DNA from: Pseudomonadota bacterium
GTDB lineage: Bacteria > Pseudomonadota > Gammaproteobacteria > Burkholderiales > Sulfuriferulaceae
Assembly: GCA_021795395.1 (NCBI GenBank)
Contig: JAJYPN010000024.1
Span: forward strand, 1-41,148
Length of the DNA: 41,148 bases
Reading direction: 5' to 3'
Positions 30,139-41,148 of the stretch are shown piece after piece (position 1 is the first letter of the stretch; every line of letters begins with the position of its first letter). A program made the position numbers and the translations under genes. Below the pieces are notes generated by a model. It did not search any database. It saw only the letters and a list, made by a program, of their open reading frames with translations, and was not told the DNA's origin.

Positions 30139-30831
30139 TCAGGACGCATTTTTGACTCCTATGATTCTGTTTCTGTCTTTTGCATTTAACGATTCCACCA
30201 GCTCATCGACGAAATTATTTTGCAAGGCGTATGCGTGCTGTACGTTGTTATCGATAGAAGAGACCCGAAACAATAAGCCGTCGGGAATTACTCCGGTAAG
30301 ACCGTAACGTAATTGAGCGATCTTCCAGCGCAAGCCGTCAACTTCGACTTCATTTCCTACCGTGGTCCAGTAAGTGATCGGTTCAATGCGGTGATCGTGG
30401 CTCGCCACCATACGCTTTACGGGAATCATGCGATGATTGGGCAACGCCATGACTGTTTTGACCAGTCCGGTAACTTGAAAGCCTTGCGTCGGATAGCAAT
30501 TTTCAGGCTTGTGTACCTGCATGTCGTCGCTCTGATTGCTGCCGTACGCAATTGCCAGCATGACGCGTTCACCTGCCGGATTGATGTATGTTCGCGATAA
30601 GGTCTGGTTATAAACGGTATTGATACGCTGCTGCGTGGCAGGGTCGATTACCATGAGATTAAGTTCGGGCTGCTCTTTCCACTCGCCGAACTGCGCCGGA
30701 ATCATCGTTTTCAAATCGATCATCGCGCCGGTGCGCACCCTTTGCACATGGGGCGTTGCGACCTTGGTCAAGCCGACTGCGGCGATCATCAGCAAGCCTA
30801 TCATATAGTAACCGCCATTACGAAGTAACAT
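30139..30831 (-). CDS. epsI: EpsI, exosortase B-associated protein
   Basis: A 230-residue EpsI-family protein with one N-terminal membrane anchor (about 8-24) and a periplasmic domain. The family motif HKPENCYPTQGF (His107 to Phe118) includes Cys112. EpsI proteins always accompany exosortases or are fused to them; their biochemical job is not settled. It overlaps the end of xrtB by 14 bases and has its own SD GGAGGT inside xrtB, so the two are co-translated. Confidence 0.93.
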   Translation of the reverse strand: MLLRNGGYYMIGLLMIAAVGLTKVATPHVQRVRTGAMIDLKTMIPAQFGEWKEQPELNLMVIDPATQQRINTVYNQTLSRTYINPAGERVMLAIAYGSNQSDDMQVHKPENCYPTQGFQVTGLVKTVMALPNHRMIPVKRMVASHDHRIEPITYWTTVGNEVEVDGLRWKIAQLRYGLTGVIPDGLLFRVSSIDNNVQHAYALQNNFVDELVESLNAKDRNRIIGVKNAS

Positions 30832-31723
30832 GACTGACCTCCGCCTTACGATCGGGGAATGGGATTCCCAGAAGATTGTCGAGCAGGAAATGGTTCAATA
30901 TACTGGCGGTAAACATGACGATTCCGGCGAATTGGTGCAGATAACTTTGCCCTACTTCATCGCCGAAATAATAGGTAAGCAGCACCAGAAACAGGACGCG
31001 TATGACGTTGGAAATAAACGCGACGGGCAGTATGGTCGCCAGCAATATCGCATTGCGCATGAAACTGGTACGCTGCATGACCTGCATATAAAGTATCCCC
31101 AGCGCGCTGAGCGAAAACATCGAATTCAATCCCGAACACGCATCCGCCACCAGCAGTTCATAATAGCCTATCGATATGGTGACGCCGGTGCGCGCAATCG
31201 GATAGCCGGCTGCATAAAGAAGCTTGACGACAATGACGGATATATAATATTTCAGCGGACCGGTTAGCGCATCGACTATGAACCCGGGAACGGGTACCAT
31301 AAAAACGAGAAAAAACAATGGGAACCATAATCGCAACACGGTAGGGACGCCCAATGTGATCAAAAGCGTTCCCACCAATATCGGTATCTCCGCACCGATT
31401 TCGAATATGAGTATTTGCTGCGACCGGCCGACTATATACAGCAGTAAACCGAATATCAGCAAAATCGAGCCAAGTACCGGTTTGGTCCGCGTCGGCGGCA
31501 ACAGCAAGGCGGAACGCTGCATCCATGCCTGCCAGATCACGACCAGCAGGATGATCGGGCCATGCCCGTTCTCTTCCGTGTTCCAGATAGTCTGGCTGAG
31601 GTCGTAATAGGTTGGGAGAAATAAGGCCGCCAACCCTATAATGACAGGCAACCATTTGAGATTTATGCCGTTATTGCCGCCCCAATAACCGTAGCGGCCA
31701 ATTATTTGGTCATTTGCTTGCAT
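30818..31723 (-). CDS. xrtB: Exosortase B
   Basis: A 301-residue polytopic membrane protease/transpeptidase of the exosortase family. The catalytic triad residues are seen as Cys196 in LVADACSGLNSMFSL, Arg242 in NVIRVLFLV and His263 in YLHQFAGIV. Exosortases cleave C-terminal sorting signals of the PEP-CTERM class at the inner membrane. The EpsG-XrtB-EpsI order is that of the B-type systems of betaproteobacteria. Candidate substrates in the window are the small proteins at 38219 and 38785. Eight bases separate it from epsG. Confidence 0.94.
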   Translation of the reverse strand: MQANDQIIGRYGYWGGNNGINLKWLPVIIGLAALFLPTYYDLSQTIWNTEENGHGPIILLVVIWQAWMQRSALLLPPTRTKPVLGSILLIFGLLLYIVGRSQQILIFEIGAEIPILVGTLLITLGVPTVLRLWFPLFFLVFMVPVPGFIVDALTGPLKYYISVIVVKLLYAAGYPIARTGVTISIGYYELLVADACSGLNSMFSLSALGILYMQVMQRTSFMRNAILLATILPVAFISNVIRVLFLVLLTYYFGDEVGQSYLHQFAGIVMFTASILNHFLLDNLLGIPFPDRKAEVSHVTS

Positions 31724-34917: not shown

Positions 34918-36144
34918 TTAAAAACTTTGTTTCACACCTGCTGAAACACTGTTGTAAGTATAACTATAGCCATAAATATTCGAAGCTTCATCGCCTCGTT
35001 CGAGATTAAAAAAGAATGCGGTGTTTCTCAGAATCTGATAATTGACTCCCAAGGTGGCGATATGCAACTGATCATGCCTGGCGGCAAACGCTTGCGGAAA
35101 TAATCCCGCAATGTTTGGGTAATCAACCGTGTCGTCCAATATGCGCAAGTTGGTGGATATCTTGGCCGTGGGTTGCCAGGTAAGCATCAAGGTGCCGCCC
35201 TGCACGAGCTGGAAACTGGTAGTGGCGGTATTGAATGCCTGGATATTCCGGTAAATCGCAAAATCCAGCGAGGTCTTGCCGGTCATGAGCCAATTTGCTT
35301 CCGCGCGCCCGGTTATTCCGGAAAAATCTTCTGCGGGATAGGTAGGAACAAGGTGCTGGGTATAATCCACAGTTCCTGTCAAATGAATTTGTTCAGTTGG
35401 CAGCCAGTCGAATTTCACCCCGTAATCGGATTCGGTAAAATTGGCATTAAAAGGCAGAAATCCGCTCACGACAGCAGAGGGAAAAGACCCTTGGGTCTGA
35501 CGGCCGTCGAGTTCTATTTTAGTTCCCGCTGGCGTCGTGTACTGAAGCCCTGCAGTTACATTCGTCATATTCAGACTAAATGCCTGCTGGCTTACTGCAC
35601 TGTTTGTGAAATCGGAGGAATTGGCCCCGGCGAGAATCTGCCAACGATCATTGAGTTTCAAACCAGCGGTAACATACTCGGTTTGTGTCGTAAAAATATC
35701 ATTGATCGGCAGCTGGATAAACGTCAAGTTTGCGAGTTGCTTGGTCTGGCTGGCGCCTGCGGTGCCATGCAATAGATCGTCGACCGCCCAATCCCATTCC
35801 AGCCCGAGATCGCTACCATTGTTATCGAGATTTTTATAGGTGTTATACCACGACTTATTCACAATGATATGCCCGGTAAATACCTGCTGGCTTACCTTCC
35901 AGTTCATATTGACGCCTGCGGTCAGCATGGTAATAAAATCGGCCGTGTCCGTACTGCCTAATATGGCCTGGGCCACCCCGGTATTCTGCAACGCGAACAA
36001 ATTGCTGTTGTAATTGAAATCGGTGGATACGAACGGAACGAACGTATCGACCGGAGCAGCATAGGCAGCTGCGGTATTGGAATCGGCGTACGATAAGGTG
36101 CTCGCCACAGAACCGCACAATATTAAAAGATAGCGTTTTTTCAT
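34918..36144 (-). CDS. epsL: EpsL, outer-membrane beta-barrel exopolysaccharide protein
   Basis: A 408-residue protein with a signal peptide (MKKRYLLILCGSVASTLSYA). Alternating beta strands with aromatic girdles fill the rest, and it ends in SAGVKQSF, a C-terminal Phe typical of outer-membrane barrels. It matches the EpsL family found in exosortase B loci, thought to help polymer export. It is the first gene of the minus-strand eps run, divergent from the priming transferase with 514 bases between them. Confidence 0.9.
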   Translation of the reverse strand: MKKRYLLILCGSVASTLSYADSNTAAAYAAPVDTFVPFVSTDFNYNSNLFALQNTGVAQAILGSTDTADFITMLTAGVNMNWKVSQQVFTGHIIVNKSWYNTYKNLDNNGSDLGLEWDWAVDDLLHGTAGASQTKQLANLTFIQLPINDIFTTQTEYVTAGLKLNDRWQILAGANSSDFTNSAVSQQAFSLNMTNVTAGLQYTTPAGTKIELDGRQTQGSFPSAVVSGFLPFNANFTESDYGVKFDWLPTEQIHLTGTVDYTQHLVPTYPAEDFSGITGRAEANWLMTGKTSLDFAIYRNIQAFNTATTSFQLVQGGTLMLTWQPTAKISTNLRILDDTVDYPNIAGLFPQAFAARHDQLHIATLGVNYQILRNTAFFFNLERGDEASNIYGYSYTYNSVSAGVKQSF

Positions 36145-36658
36145 TGTGGTTATTCTTACTCAAAGTTACTGTAACCGTGATTCATCCGTCCTGTCCCGGA
36201 GTCAATTATCACGTCGATCAATTAAAACAGATATTACAAAACACCTTTCGCAAGCACTTTCAATGCCACCAGGAGCACATCGTCACCAATGCCGGTCAAA
36301 ATGCTTTTCTTTACTGGTTCGCTCTGCTTAATAATATCCATCCATGCTAAGCTGAGCGTGCCCATTGAAGTCCAACTCGCAACTTTCCAACATTATGTAC
36401 TATATATTACATCTTTGTATTATGATAACAGTGCAATATTACACCGAAATGTCTTACAAATAGTAATAATTTTTATAAAACCTTATGCAGAGTTAATCCT
36501 ACACGATTTCGTTTAATTGTCATACTTGTTACTTACACTTGCTTGCTGGGCATGCGGAATATGAAAGTATAAAATAGGCCTATTTTATGGATTTACGAGC
36601 AAAAAAATAACATCGGACCTTGGCGTCAGGAAAATAAAAGAACATATAGGCATTTATC
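36145..36658. promoter_or_regulatory. Divergent control region between epsL and the priming transferase
   Basis: 514 AT-rich bases with no convincing gene. It must carry the promoters for the minus-strand eps run and for the + strand transferase. Landmarks: palindrome GTTACTGTAAC at 36165-36175 close to the epsL start; an exact GTTAATCCTAC at 36492-36502 that recurs upstream of the first small secreted protein; and the 20-bp palindrome at 36569-36588. No -24/-12 sigma-54 site was found. Confidence 0.65.
36569..36588. promoter_or_regulatory. Perfect 20-bp palindrome, candidate operator
   Basis: ATAAAATAGGCCTATTTTAT is a perfect dyad ending 70 bases before the ATG of the priming transferase (36659). 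Two imperfect copies, 17/20 and 14/20 by eye, occur at 38072-38091 and 38591-38610 upstream of the small secreted proteins. Repetition at three nearby promoters on the same strand argues for a regulator-binding site rather than chance AT-richness. Confidence 0.6.
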
Positions 36659-38050
36659 ATGAACGACAATTATGAACATCCGGCTTTAAGCTTGGCAAAA
36701 AGGCTAGTGAATCCGTCTGTCATCCTGGCATCCTTGTTTTTGGCAGTTCTGATTACTGACCCTCCCTTTTCCGGCACGGATTTATTGTTCGGCATCCTGG
36801 CATTTTTAATTGGAGCCGAGGTGTTTGACGGGTTCAAGTTTTTTGATGTGAGCGCAGACAATAATTGGAACCTTCTGTTAAGCCTGGTCAGACTTTTAAC
36901 GGCCTGGCTTATCGTATTGGGCCTTTTATTGGCGCTGGGCTTTGCGACCGATATCTATAAACAATTCAAGATCAGTACGATATTGGTTTGGGTGTTATTT
37001 ACTCCCGTTCTTCTTGCGCTGAGCCAGGCCATCGTACGCAATCATCTGGAATCGTTACGCCATCGCGGGCAAATCAGGCGCGCGATCGTGGTCGGAGCGG
37101 ATGATCTGGGCTGCAAACTGGCCAATCATATCCATCGCGAACGCAACCTGATGATACGGGTAGATGCCTTTTTCGATGACCGTCTTGACGAGCGCAGCGA
37201 TAAAAGACTGCTTCCCATCATTACCGGCGGCCTGAGTGAAGTAGCGGATTATGTCGCAAAGTCCGGGATTGACCTGGTTTATATTACGCTACCCATCATG
37301 AAACAGCCACGTGTACTCGAACTTGTGAATACGCTACGCGATACGACGGCTTCGGTATATTTCGTTCCCGATATTTTTCTTTTCGATTTTGTACAAACCC
37401 GTTTTGATGAAATCAACGGCGTTCCAGTACTGGCGGTTTTCGAATCTCCATTAATAGGCATTAATGCCGTTCACAAACGGATCTTCGATGTATTGGTATC
37501 CGGCATGATTCTGTTAATGATCGCGCCCGCTCTTTTAATCATCGCAGCATTGGTAAAACTCACATCCCCAGGCCCGGTTTTTTTTAAACAACGCCGGTAT
37601 GGTCTTGATGGCGAAGAAATCATGGTGTTCAAATTCCGCTCCATGACCGTTTGCGAAGATGGGGATCGCGTTACCCAAGCGACCAGAAATGATGCGCGCG
37701 TGACCCCTTTGGGTGCGATTCTTCGCAAAACCTCCCTGGACGAATTACCGCAATTGATCAATGTGCTACTGGGCACGATGAGCATAGTCGGACCCCGACC
37801 TCATGCCGTTTCTCACAACGAGCATTATAGAAAATTGATACATGGTTACATGTGGCGGCATAAAGTAAAACCGGGCATTACCGGATTGGCGCAAGTCAAC
37901 GGCTTTCGCGGGGAAACCGATACGCTTGAGAAAATGGAAGGGCGCGTGCAACACGATATCGCCTATCTCAAAAATTGGTCGATAGGACTGGATATCGTCA
38001 TCATATTAAAAACCGTACGTCTCGTATTCAAGGATAGTCAGGCTTATTAA
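36659..38050 (+). CDS. Undecaprenyl-phosphate sugar-1-phosphate transferase (WcaJ/EpsB-like priming enzyme)
   Basis: A 463-residue polyisoprenyl-phosphate hexose-1-phosphate transferase. Four N-terminal hydrophobic helices (about 18-130) are followed by a nucleotide-binding-like CoA_binding_3 domain (RRAIVVGADDLGCKLA onward) and the catalytic bacterial sugar transferase domain. Motifs there: KRIFDVLVSGM, PGPVFFKQRRYGLDG, MVFKFRSM, SLDELPQLINVLLG, SIVGPRPHA and KPGITGLAQVNGFRG. It probably transfers glucose-1-phosphate (or another hexose-phosphate) to the lipid carrier, the first step of repeat synthesis. It is transcribed divergently from epsL. The SD is weak (TATAGGCA). Confidence 0.93.
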   Translation: MNDNYEHPALSLAKRLVNPSVILASLFLAVLITDPPFSGTDLLFGILAFLIGAEVFDGFKFFDVSADNNWNLLLSLVRLLTAWLIVLGLLLALGFATDIYKQFKISTILVWVLFTPVLLALSQAIVRNHLESLRHRGQIRRAIVVGADDLGCKLANHIHRERNLMIRVDAFFDDRLDERSDKRLLPIITGGLSEVADYVAKSGIDLVYITLPIMKQPRVLELVNTLRDTTASVYFVPDIFLFDFVQTRFDEINGVPVLAVFESPLIGINAVHKRIFDVLVSGMILLMIAPALLIIAALVKLTSPGPVFFKQRRYGLDGEEIMVFKFRSMTVCEDGDRVTQATRNDARVTPLGAILRKTSLDELPQLINVLLGTMSIVGPRPHAVSHNEHYRKLIHGYMWRHKVKPGITGLAQVNGFRGETDTLEKMEGRVQHDIAYLKNWSIGLDIVIILKTVRLVFKDSQAY

Positions 38051-38068
38051 TCAATTCTTCTTCGGCTC

Positions 38069-38118
38069 GTCATAAAATAGGCATATTTTCTGCTTAAACT
38101 ATAAGTGTTAATCCTACG
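38069..38118 (+). promoter_or_regulatory. Shared 50-bp promoter element, copy A
   Basis: Aligned without gaps to 38588-38637 it is identical at 39 of 50 positions. It begins GTCATAAAAT, contains ATAAAATAGG-CATATTTTCT (38072-38091, a variant of the 36569 palindrome) and ends AGTGTTAATCCTACG. It lies 100 bases before the ATG at 38219. A perfect hairpin ATTCAGT-AGC-ACTGAAT (38149-38165) sits in the leader after it. Confidence 0.65.
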
Positions 38119-38218
38119 TTTTGTCGTGTGACTTTTATCTGGATGCCCATTCAGTAGCACTGAATCGGCTAACGGATACATAAGGTGCGCTCAACCCTAA
38201 CACTTACAGGAGGAAAAA

Positions 38219-38485
38219 ATGCTCCGATTTATTAAAATAGCGATTCTGGCGATTATTTTGTTCACCATCGTCAGCATTTCTTCTATCCAGAATCGATCTA
38301 TCCAATCCTATGACATCGCAGCAATAAATATTTCCAGCTTAATCTCTAACAAGCCAATTTTCACCCATACTGGCGGCGGCTTTATAACCCATCCTTCCAC
38401 CTCCAAATTTTCCGGGATCAATATCTGGTCTTTGATAGCAGCAGGCATAGGCTTGGTCGGGTTACGGCTGCGTCGAAGAAACTAG
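38219..38485 (+). CDS. Small secreted protein with exosortase-like C-terminus lacking PEP (1)
   Basis: An 88-residue protein with strong SD AGGAGG before ATG 38219. The N-terminus (residues ~5-24, IKIAILAIILFTIVSIS) is a signal peptide or anchor. The middle ~35 residues are Ser/Ile/Asn-rich with no known motif. The C-terminus SLIAAGIGLVGLRLRRRN is a hydrophobic helix followed by an Arg cluster, the tripartite layout of PEP-CTERM sorting signals. In place of Pro-Glu-Pro it has SGIN just before the helix. The same ending (GLRLRR) occurs in the gene at 38785. Probable substrate or relative of substrates of exosortase B; function unknown. Confidence 0.72.
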   Translation: MLRFIKIAILAIILFTIVSISSIQNRSIQSYDIAAINISSLISNKPIFTHTGGGFITHPSTSKFSGINIWSLIAAGIGLVGLRLRRRN

Positions 38486-38587
38486 CCAATTTACTCGTGT
38501 ATCCGATACGTCAGACCAACAAACCTGCCTGTCTTTTTATAGTTAGCATTTGCATGCAAACAACGAAACGTATATTTTTTTTAGTCT

Positions 38588-38637
38588 GTCATAAAATCTG
38601 CATATATTCTGTATATAATGTCAGTGTTACTCTTACG
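38588..38637 (+). promoter_or_regulatory. Shared 50-bp promoter element, copy B
   Basis: Second copy of the element at 38069-38118. It contains ATAAAATCTG-CATATATTCT (38591-38610), then a perfect -10 hexamer TATAAT (38614-38619), then AGTGTTACTCTTACG. No good -35 hexamer stands at the proper distance; the palindrome occupies that place, as in activator-dependent promoters. It lies 147 bases before the ATG at 38785. Confidence 0.65.
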
Positions 38638-38784
38638 ATTGATTGCGTATTCGTATGCGTCAATATGAGCAGTAACAATCGTAGAGGGTGGCGATGAAAG
38701 CCAAATGGCCGTTCCGGCTATACCGCATTTACCGCAACCTCTTAAGCGATAAGTCTTTACTTAACCTTTGAAGGAGATCTAAAA

Positions 38785-39072
38785 ATGCGTAATCTATTAA
38801 AACCTGCTACGCTTGCTCTTGTACTGATTGCCGCCGGATCTGCTGGCGTAGCAAATGCAGCCGAAGTACATGAAATGACTGCGGAACCGATCGTTGGTGA
38901 TGTGGTCTGGAACGGTCAGACCATGCCACTGGATGCTGACGATGTGTATACCAACTCTACCGGCATGCATGTTTATATGCCTGATCCAGTGCTGCCAGAA
39001 GCCGACACGCTGTCCTTGATGGCAGTTGGCCTGGGACTTATCGGCTTACGTTTACGTCGTAAAAACAAGTAA
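38785..39072 (+). CDS. Small secreted protein with PEP-CTERM-like C-terminus (2)
   Basis: A 95-residue protein; SD GAAGGAGA precedes ATG 38785. Signal peptide: MRNLLKPATLALVLIAAGSAGVANA, with a likely cut after AlaAsnAla (residue 25). The mature part is acidic (EVHEMTAEPIVGDVV...). C-terminal signal: LPEADTLSLMAVGLGLIGLRL, then RRKNK. This is PEP-CTERM-like, with Pro-Glu-Ala in place of Pro-Glu-Pro, a helix and a basic tail. It is paralogous at the C-terminus to the protein at 38219. Predicted to be processed by XrtB and surface- or matrix-located; function unknown. Confidence 0.78.
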   Translation: MRNLLKPATLALVLIAAGSAGVANAAEVHEMTAEPIVGDVVWNGQTMPLDADDVYTNSTGMHVYMPDPVLPEADTLSLMAVGLGLIGLRLRRKNK

Positions 39073-39115
39073 TAGCGATTAAGTCCCGTGCCCGTGAGCT
39101 GGGACTTTAGCTAAT

Positions 39116-39158
39116 CGGCCGATATAAAGTCGCGGTTTCGCCGCACTTATTTCGGCCG
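39116..39158 (+). terminator. Long stem-loop downstream of the small secreted protein gene
   Basis: CGGCCGATATAAAGT with CGCGG (39116-39135) pairs with CGCCGCACTTATTTCGGCCG (39139-39158) over about 18 positions with few mismatches, around a short loop. TATCTTTATACTTT follows, a modest T-rich tail. It begins 43 bases after the stop at 39072. A smaller hairpin AAGTCCC...GGGACTT (39081-39107) stands before it. Confidence 0.55.
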
Positions 39159-39312
39159 TATCTTTATACTTTCACCTTATTGCATCAGCCCGGGCCTTCA
39201 TTCCCTTATGCAGACAGATTTATTTCTGGACACCGTCAGAGTCTGAGGTTATTCTTTAGCAATACCTTGGTTATTTTGTCTAAGCGCTATATTTCCATAA
39301 CCACATAGCCGC

Positions 39313-39939
39313 ATGATTTCATGGTTCACCATTACTACAACCGGAAGCTTTACCGTTATGGCACCTGCCGGCATGGCAATAACGGCATGGTTGGCACTTA
39401 ATCGTGCCTGGAAATTGGTTATGTGGTGGATATTGCTGTTTATTGGCGGCATGGGTCTGGTAGTTGCTACCAAAATCGCTTTTGTCGGCTGGGGTATAGG
39501 AATACGCTCGCTGAATTTTACCGGATTCAGCGGTCATGCCATGCGCGCAACCGCGGTTGCGCCCGTATTTTTCTATATGCTGCTCGAAAAAAATTCGCGT
39601 CCTTACAAAATCGCAGGAATTATAACGGGCCTTGCATTTGGCGTACTGATCAGCTACTCAAGGCTGGTTGTACATGCCCATTCGGTATCGGAAGCCGTGA
39701 CAGGCTGCCTGCTGGGCGGCGCTATCGCGCTTGTCTTTATCGGCATAATCGATCAATGCAAACTCGAGCTCAATCGCTGGGTAATTGTAATGAGCATAGC
39801 TGTCCTGTTGGCTTCCCCTTCTATTCCACCCGCTCCTACGCAACGCTGGATCACCGTGACCGCACTGTACCTTTCCGGTCACAGTTCTCCTTATACACGA
39901 GCCAACTGGAGAAACTCGAGCGATCTCGAAGTTTTTTGA
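39313..39939 (+). CDS. PAP2-superfamily membrane phosphatase
   Basis: A 208-residue protein with about five hydrophobic helices. It keeps the acid-phosphatase motifs in variant form: FTGFSGHAM (catalytic-type His in SGH) and SRLVVHAHSVSEAVTG (SR-x5-H, with Glu in the usual Asp place). The first motif (K-x6-RP) is degenerate: KIAFVGWGIGI. The ending LYLSGHSSPYTRANW is typical for this subgroup. Possible role: recycling undecaprenyl diphosphate or another polyprenyl phosphate in exopolysaccharide synthesis. An in-frame stop lies just upstream at 39298, so 39313 is the first possible ATG; there is no clear SD. It is convergent with epsD. Confidence 0.8.
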   Translation: MISWFTITTTGSFTVMAPAGMAITAWLALNRAWKLVMWWILLFIGGMGLVVATKIAFVGWGIGIRSLNFTGFSGHAMRATAVAPVFFYMLLEKNSRPYKIAGIITGLAFGVLISYSRLVVHAHSVSEAVTGCLLGGAIALVFIGIIDQCKLELNRWVIVMSIAVLLASPSIPPAPTQRWITVTALYLSGHSSPYTRANWRNSSDLEVF

Positions 39940-39969
39940 AGTTTTATCAAACCCATTAAGATTGACCTG

Positions 39970-40788
39970 CTATTGATCCAGATACTGAATTTTTGCATGA
40001 GCGCGTAATTTTTGTATTATTGCTTCTTTGGCTCGTGCTTGTTCTTCGGCATTTAATAAAGCGGTAATTTTCAATTGCGCCCGGTTTAAGGGTATGGGAG
40101 CCGGAATTTTGCTTATGAGCAGCAACAATTCCATATCCTTACGTGTTTGGCTCACAACCAGAGCTCCATCTATCGGCATCTTCGCCAAAGCCTTTAATTC
40201 AATATCGCTCATGTCTTCCGGAATTTTAACCGTCTGCCGTTGATCGTAGGTTATATTTGCGTGACTTAATGCGTTAAAAAATTCCGTCGAGTTATTGCTG
40301 GCTTCCAATTGCGACAGCAATTTCTGTTGCTGCTCAATATCGGCCTCTATATCGTAATAATTTACTACATACAAAGTGCGATCAGCGAACAATAAGGGAT
40401 GATTTTGATAATAGCCGCTAATTTCAGCAGAGCTGGGCGGTGGCAGCGTCTTGAACTGCTCGTCCAGATACGCCTTGATCAAAGCTTGCTTTTGACTTAA
40501 CAATAGCATTTGCATAACGACAGGATTTTTATCCAGCCCTTCATTTTTGGCCGCAGCAATCAATAAATGCTGATCAATCACTGCATTCACTGCATTTCGC
40601 CGGATTTGTGTTTTGGATCCGCGATAGGATTTCATCTGATCTATATATTGATTTACTTCGGGAACAGTAATTTCTTTACCATTTACCTTTGCCATCACCT
40701 GATATTTCCCCGGCTCCTCTTTTGGGTTACAGGCTGCAAGCAAAAATGGCAGTAGGCAAATCAAAGCTAATCGGCCGTTTCGACGCAT
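39970..40788 (-). CDS. epsD: EpsD-family peptidyl-prolyl isomerase-like lipoprotein
   Basis: A lipoprotein of 272 residues from the start used here. MRRNGRLALICLLPFLLAACNP holds a lipobox (LAAC). The chain then follows the SurA/PpiC N-terminal pattern: VMAKVNGKEITVPEVNQYI, AVIDQHLLIAAAKNEGL. A parvulin-like domain follows. An in-frame ATG at 40833 would add 15 residues before the signal peptide, so I prefer 40788, though no strong SD favours either. EpsD proteins belong to exosortase B exopolysaccharide clusters and probably help fold or insert the export proteins. Here it is set apart from epsL/E/F/G at the far end, next to the rRNA operon. Confidence 0.85.
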   Translation of the reverse strand: MRRNGRLALICLLPFLLAACNPKEEPGKYQVMAKVNGKEITVPEVNQYIDQMKSYRGSKTQIRRNAVNAVIDQHLLIAAAKNEGLDKNPVVMQMLLLSQKQALIKAYLDEQFKTLPPPSSAEISGYYQNHPLLFADRTLYVVNYYDIEADIEQQQKLLSQLEASNNSTEFFNALSHANITYDQRQTVKIPEDMSDIELKALAKMPIDGALVVSQTRKDMELLLLISKIPAPIPLNRAQLKITALLNAEEQARAKEAIIQKLRAHAKIQYLDQ

Positions 40789-40853
40789 TTGGACGCATCG
40801 ATTTCCTGTTTTTGATGGGCTAGCCAAATCCATATCTAATTTCTTTCGAAGAG

Positions 40854-40883
40854 TGCAAAATGGCTATTGTATGATATTTTGCA
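40854..40883. repeat. Inverted repeat upstream of epsD
   Basis: TGCAAAAT (40854-40861) and ATTTTGCA (40876-40883) form perfect 8-bp arms with a 14-base spacer, just upstream of epsD on the minus strand. This could be a promoter-linked operator. Confidence 0.45.
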
Positions 40884-40999
40884 TTTAGAAAGAATAGATG
40901 AGCATTGCAGGCGCTCGCAAACGCTCAATGCGGTCTGCGCATTCGTGACGGCAAAGTTCAAACCAATCCCGAGAACGGAGGCTGGCACCCAAAGCGAAA

Positions 41000-41020
41000 C
41001 GCCCAACACAAGGTTGGGCG
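41000..41020 (-). terminator. Rho-independent terminator of the rRNA operon
   Basis: Read on the minus strand, CGCCCAAC-CTTGT-GTTGGGCG forms a perfect 8-bp GC-rich stem, followed by GTTTCGCTTT. It lies about 16 bases after the 5S 3' end. Confidence 0.8.
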
Positions 41021-41036
41021 GTTGGCGGGATAGGAG

Positions 41037-41148
41037 TCTGACGATGACCTACTTTCACATGGGTAATCCACACTATCATTGGCGCTGTCCCGTTTCACGG
41101 CCCTGTTCGGGATGGGAAGGGGTGGTTCCAGGACGCTATGGTCGTCAG
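41037..41148 (-). rRNA. rrf: 5S ribosomal RNA (5' end at or just beyond the window edge)
   Basis: The minus strand reads CTGACGACCATAGCG..., with CACCCCTTCCCATCCCGAAC in the 5S loop region and ...GAAAGTAGGTCATCGTCAG at the 3' end. The terminal stem CTGACGA/TCGTCAG closes correctly. About 112 bases are present; one to three bases of the 5' end may be cut off. The 23S gene should lie right of the window. Confidence 0.95.

Follow-up and report, generated by a model that had tools for sequence, protein, structure and literature searches.

A recurrent palindromic element at an exosortase B locus is probably a sigma-54 promoter

What acts at a 20-base-pair (bp) palindrome that recurs upstream of three genes at an exosortase B (XrtB) polysaccharide locus? 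The locus lies on contig JAJYPN010000024.1 of assembly GCA_021795395.1, from a Pseudomonadota bacterium of the family Sulfuriferulaceae whose genome has 2.54 megabases and a completeness rating of 92.78%, and the window that was analysed is this one whole contig of 41,148 nucleotides (nt). A preliminary description had interpreted the palindrome as the mark of an undescribed small regulon, in which one dimeric regulator would control epsB, the gene of the priming transferase, and two small genes behind it. The repeats on which that interpretation was based were all present, including the two 50-bp copies (38069–38118 and 38588–38637, identity 39/50) that hold palindromes B and C. Based on comparison with related genomes, we consider the element to be a sigma-54 (RpoN) promoter and not the operator of a dimeric regulator, with a probability of about 0.78. 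The features at the center of the question are the following.

36569–36588, no strand: palindrome A, perfect over 20 bp, located in the leader of epsB and 33 nt downstream of the sigma-54-like element of this gene
38072–38091, no strand: imperfect palindrome B, identical to A at 18/20 positions, with 8/10 palindromic pairs, overlapping the sigma-54 promoter
38079–38096, + strand: candidate sigma-54 -24/-12 promoter AGGCATATTTTCTGCTTA, of the form GG-N10-GC, 140 nt before the start codon of the gene at 38219
38591–38610, no strand: palindrome C, identical to A at 15/20 positions, with 7/10 pairs

Copy B and the leaders of related genomes

Copy B (AGGCATATTTTCTGCTT) has one mismatch to the sigma-54 pattern TGGCAYN6TGCTT and is of the form GG-N10-GC. 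Its -24 GG and -12 GC are what recurs in the relatives. Transcription from sigma-54 promoters starts about 12 nt after the GC. The palindrome itself probably arose incidentally, from a partly symmetric core set in AT-rich DNA.

Related genomes were represented by five (G009 and G011–G014), in which PEP-CTERM genes that follow closely on epsB provided 17 leaders; we termed these genes XrtB-type by position and C-terminus, the search for XrtB itself having covered the window. The exact pattern TGGCAY-N6-TGCTT was found on the coding strand in 8 of these 17 leaders and on the other strand in none, and 500 shuffles of the same leaders gave a mean of 0.004 exact sites and a maximum of 1. A counterpart promoter in G009, the nearest relative by EpsB identity, has both GG and GC (TGTCATAAAACTGGCACATTGTGTGCTTATACTATAAGTGTTA) and 5/10 palindromic pairs. 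When the register of the palindrome was applied to nine sigma-54 sites of the relatives, the dyad had between 2 and 7 of 10 pairs, and it was the -24/-12 letters that recurred.

The genome itself has 11 exact sigma-54 sites, three of which are before PEP-CTERM genes and one before epsL. A further copy of the element elsewhere in the same genome (C48) carries the canonical sigma-54 promoter TGGCATGTTATCTGCTTATAATGTAGGTGTTGCACTTACA, in register with the 50-bp copies. The PEP-CTERM gene that follows it encodes a protein with 48% identity to the product of the gene at 38785.

Six leaders of the relatives (G011_p1, G012_p2, G013_p2 to p4 and G014_p1; L103, L101, L100, L102) had in common a hairpin, TGGGGC...GCTCC, near the predicted 5' end of the messenger RNA. 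It has six predicted pairs in six sequences with no two-sided change and no Rfam match, the search of the loci of the five relatives having given zero matches.

Elements before epsB and epsL

The - strand of the locus encodes XrtB, EpsI of type B, EpsG, EpsF, EpsE and EpsL, and the + strand encodes the priming transferase; each of these proteins scored above its family cut-off. The best match of EpsB among named records was a Sulfuriferula metagenome bin, at 73% identity, which points to a Sulfuriferula-like organism. The genes and elements that bear on the argument are listed below in order of position.

30818–31723, - strand: exosortase B, XrtB (TIGR03113), 335.8 bits, cut-off 275
34918–36144, - strand: epsL, XrtB-associated outer membrane protein (TIGR03014), 276.4 bits, cut-off 275
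36252–36268, - strand: exact sigma-54 pattern TGGCATTGAAAGTGCTT, upstream of the divergent epsL and 108 nt from its start codon
36445–36458, + strand: PrsR-type activator box CGAAATGTCTTACA, 59 nt upstream of the sigma-54-like element of epsB
36518–36535, + strand: epsB sigma-54-like element TGTCATACTTGTTACTTA, register kept, TTAC for TTGC
36659–38050, + strand: epsB, undecaprenyl-phosphate glucose phosphotransferase (TIGR03023), 503.8 bits, cut-off 410.75
38219–38485, + strand: 88-residue protein with an exosortase-substrate-like hydrophobic and basic C-terminus, PEP tripeptide absent, PF07589 at 13.6 bits, below the cut-off of 20.7
38785–39072, + strand: 95-residue PEP-CTERM protein, PF07589 at 30.0 bits, cut-off 20.7

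A Pfam search with the 88-residue protein gave zero matches at 1e-5. The contig ends in a 5S ribosomal RNA gene (41036–41148, - strand), which was the sole match in an Rfam search of 36000–41148.

In the proposed arrangement, epsB would have a sigma-54-like element of its own with the PrsR-type box as an upstream enhancer, and the divergent epsL would be served by the exact sigma-54 pattern. Of 16 epsB upstream regions, 8 had the form TGTCAT-N5-TTGCTT and none had it on the other strand. These regions were from the genome itself, eight others of the genus and seven named loci, after leaving out G005 (contig start), G010 (start unclear), the G003 fragment and the more distant L041–L059, as well as L019, L020, L025 and L028, which are identical upstream to loci of the genus. 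The PrsR-type box ranked 5 of 82270 window positions when scored by a matrix, and 15 of 1000 shuffled intergenic regions scored as high. The matrix was built from eight sites before PEP-CTERM genes of other genomes, chosen by eye, one per gene and with the own genome excluded; 43 loci had been screened, 14 kept because a suitable reading frame followed a sigma-54-like core, and a box was found in 9 of these 14, which are presumably XrtA-type.

The preliminary description had placed the regulator gene outside the window, and this is likely to be right, with the best candidates encoded on other contigs: RpoN (469.4 bits, cut-off 277.35), PrsR (733.9 bits, cut-off 502.6) and, adjoining PrsR, PrsK (786.6 bits). 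The presence of these three proteins together with the PrsR-type box before the epsB element makes it likely that epsB, epsL and the PEP-CTERM genes form a shared regulon of the kind that Haft et al. described in 2006. RNA polymerase with RpoN would be held closed at the promoters until an activator of the NtrC type opens them, and this activator would most likely be PrsR, phosphorylated by PrsK. Polysaccharide synthesis and the production of the substrates of exosortase B would in this way be switched on together.

Points against a sigma-54 promoter, and the alternatives

Several observations weigh against this interpretation. At up to one mismatch the sigma-54 pattern occurred at 92 sites genome-wide and at 85 for the control, which is no enrichment, and copy B with its one mismatch therefore proves little on its own, such that the case rests on the relatives. 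Nine of the 17 leaders of the relatives lack an exact site, and the eight that have one are not independent, since near-identical paralogues (G013 p2–p4) are among them. The epsB element has GT for GG and AC for GC, a weakened -12; four other window positions match or exceed the score of its PrsR-type box; and no box of this type was found in the 200 nt upstream of B or C, where the best scores were 1.9 and 2.2. Copy C, of the form TG-N10-GT, has lost both sigma-54 dinucleotides and is a poor fit. The dyad at the sigma-54 sites of the relatives was on average above background (4.1 vs 2.5 of 10 pairs) and was highest at G014_p1, with 7/10. The likeness of A and B is left unexplained: read as a promoter, palindrome A is GG-N10-GG instead of GG-N10-GC and is unlike a working promoter, and as A is without the GC, sigma-54 does not account for its near-identity to B.

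Copy C appears to be a decayed promoter, paralogous to that of copy B. It contains the following elements.

38587–38604, + strand: epsB-type sigma-54-like frame TGTCATAAAATCTGCATA, within copy C
38598–38615, + strand: decayed counterpart of the copy-B promoter, CTGCATATATTCTGTATA, overlapping palindrome C
38614–38619, + strand: TATAAT, in the third copy (38588–38637) only

It is possible, though doubtful, that copy C has been turned into a sigma-70 promoter, as its TATAAT is perfect and its GG and GC are gone. The preliminary description had the palindrome at the -35 position before a perfect TATAAT in a “copy B”, which must mean the 38588–38637 copy, because the sole TATAAT within 38000–38700 lies there. 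The -35 position does fall inside the palindrome, but at a 17-nt spacing the hexamer is ATAAAA, unlike TTGACA. In addition, an identical TATAAT follows the intact sigma-54 promoter of the C48 copy, such that the TATAAT of copy C may only be inherited.

Another explanation attributes the likeness of B and C to common descent only, by tandem duplication of the small genes with their promoters, and that of A and B to chance in AT-rich DNA, with no co-regulation with epsB. Duplication would fit with the gap-free alignment of the B, C and C48 leaders and with the tandem PEP-CTERM genes behind epsB in G011–G014. Palindrome A is the sole perfect 20-bp palindrome in the window, and 2 of 40 shuffled windows held one (mean 0.05). 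We regard this explanation as unlikely, however, given that sigma-54-like elements are present before epsB, epsL and the PEP-CTERM genes alike and that none of 2000 dinucleotide shuffles of the three joined leaders (981 bases) contained a 20-mer similar to A (up to two mismatches), which indicates that the likeness of A and B is not due to chance under that null.

The same shuffles are among the points in favor of an operator, by which one dimeric regulator would control epsB and the two small genes from a site overlapping their promoters. Judged by eye, the likeness of A and B is confined to the 20-mer and their flanks are not alike, as would be the case for a binding site, and the G014_p1 site keeps its seven pairs. 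Genome and genus scans gave the palindrome no standing above control: at up to three mismatches, A and B were the sole matches in the own genome (reversed control, 1 place), and 18 genomes of the genus had 3 places, two of them A and B, vs 4 for the reversed control. Of the 15 other epsB regions, 13 had a best match to A no better than that of shuffles, the exceptions being G013 and L024 (3/100 shuffles as good in each), and the same was true of 16 of the 17 PEP-CTERM leaders of the relatives. The exception among the leaders, G009_p2 (14/20, 1/100 shuffles as good), is the sigma-54 counterpart. EpsA (TIGR03020) is a LuxR-type regulator of XrtB loci and would be a plausible dimeric regulator here, but it had 0 matches at E <= 1e-10 in the own genome (G000), which is 92.78% complete. 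With its dyad not conserved at the nine sites of the relatives, A-like sites at control level and the recurring letters being those of sigma-54, a palindromic operator is not supported and we consider it very unlikely, and A probably does not function as one; what stands of the proposed regulon, as likely, is the shared control of the transferase and the small PEP-CTERM genes.

Activators, the leader box and known systems

Of 18 genomes of the genus, 5 had a PrsR above the cut-off. G011–G014, which are 96–99% complete, were not among the five, but their PEP-CTERM genes are preceded by sigma-54 promoters. If the sigma-54 promoters of G011–G014 work, another activator must act there. The seven strongest activator-type matches in the own genome included PrsR, NtrC and NifA, which passed their family cut-offs, one GlrR-like protein below the cut-off, one protein with a PAS domain and one with a GAF domain. 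The seventh, C55, which we take to be PilR-like, has counterparts at 67–81% identity that are also present in genomes without PEP-CTERM matches. G011, G012 and G014 encode an activator with a PrsR-like DNA-binding end that is outside the seven of the own genome. No candidate, this one included, was accepted as the activator for the genomes without PrsR.

Two gene neighborhoods were seen in the course of these searches. In G011 (L199:224-6157), the activator with the PrsR-like end, of the response-regulator type, is beside secretin and pilus-ATPase genes, the nearest family being MshL, just below its cut-off. In the own genome, the GAF-type sigma-54 activator gene (L147:7859-9708, C45) is flanked by two exact sigma-54 patterns that face outward, and rhodanese, NMT1-like and OsmC genes are its neighbors.

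The preliminary description had also pointed to a second repeated motif, GTTAnTCyTAC, whose copies were confirmed.

36492–36502, + strand: GTTAATCCTAC box, upstream copy, exact
38107–38117, + strand: GTTAATCCTAC box, leader copy, exact, which would begin near +3, given a transcription start 12 nt beyond the GC
38626–38636, + strand: GTTACTCTTAC leader box, in the 38588–38637 copy

A fourth match, GTTATTCTTAC, is at 36149–36159, just before the epsL start codon and on the strand opposite to epsL. The scan of the genome gave 7 exact matches vs 12 for the control; four of the seven are within 2.5 kilobases on this contig, and three of those four define the pattern. We rejected the motif as a PrsR box, its three copies ranking 1373 (the upstream copy), 9013 and 1668 of 82270.

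The copies before the two small genes correspond to a TCTTAC-like box. Such a box was present within 45 nt downstream of the promoter at 7 of 15 sites, with a shuffle expectation of 0.31. None of the 14 leaders of other PEP-CTERM genes had one. The pattern was picked after viewing the sequences, and the 7/15 includes three leaders of the own genome, without which the count is 4/12; for these reasons we treat the box as a lead and not as a test. The count also includes a G009_p1 site placed by eye and, for G014 p3 and p4, promoters that are non-exact. Tentatively, the XrtB branch might use sigma-54 promoters with an activator other than PrsR that acts not from upstream but through the TCTTAC-like box in the transcribed leader, the box being either an enhancer placed downstream or an RNA element of the leader, although we would not expect this to be the case.

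Sigma-54 control of PEP-CTERM genes has been described before, and the regulon is not undescribed in this respect. Haft et al. (2006, PMC1569441) predicted a cis-regulatory element of PEP-CTERM genes, associated with PrsK/PrsR, in which a motif 1 ending in TTTACA precedes a sigma-54 motif 2 by 62.8 nt (standard deviation 10.6). A 2023 paper mapped the promoter of pepA of Aquincola tertiaricarbonis by primer extension and found it to be rpoN1-dependent (PMC9850573). The present locus resembles the system of Haft et al. in its -24/-12 elements before exosortase substrates, in having PrsK, PrsR and RpoN in the genome, and in the distance of the epsB box from its element (59 nt here). It differs in that the exosortase is XrtB, that B and C are without an upstream motif 1 and have the TCTTAC-like box downstream instead, and that the promoters are also present in four nearly complete relatives in which no PrsR reached the cut-off. 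For pepA, as here, a PEP-CTERM gene is preceded by the hexamers TGGCAC and CTGCTT, although the evidence there is experimental and here is from sequence alone. None of the papers among the literature matches listed had sigma-54 control of XrtB loci as its subject.

Together, these data turn an apparent new operator into a testable prediction, namely that RpoN would co-activate polysaccharide priming, export and the substrates of exosortase B. Should it be borne out that the four relatives are without PrsR, this branch would fall outside the reach of the regulator put forward in 2006 for the exosortase systems of proteobacteria, and the activator of the branch would be a target that can be found.

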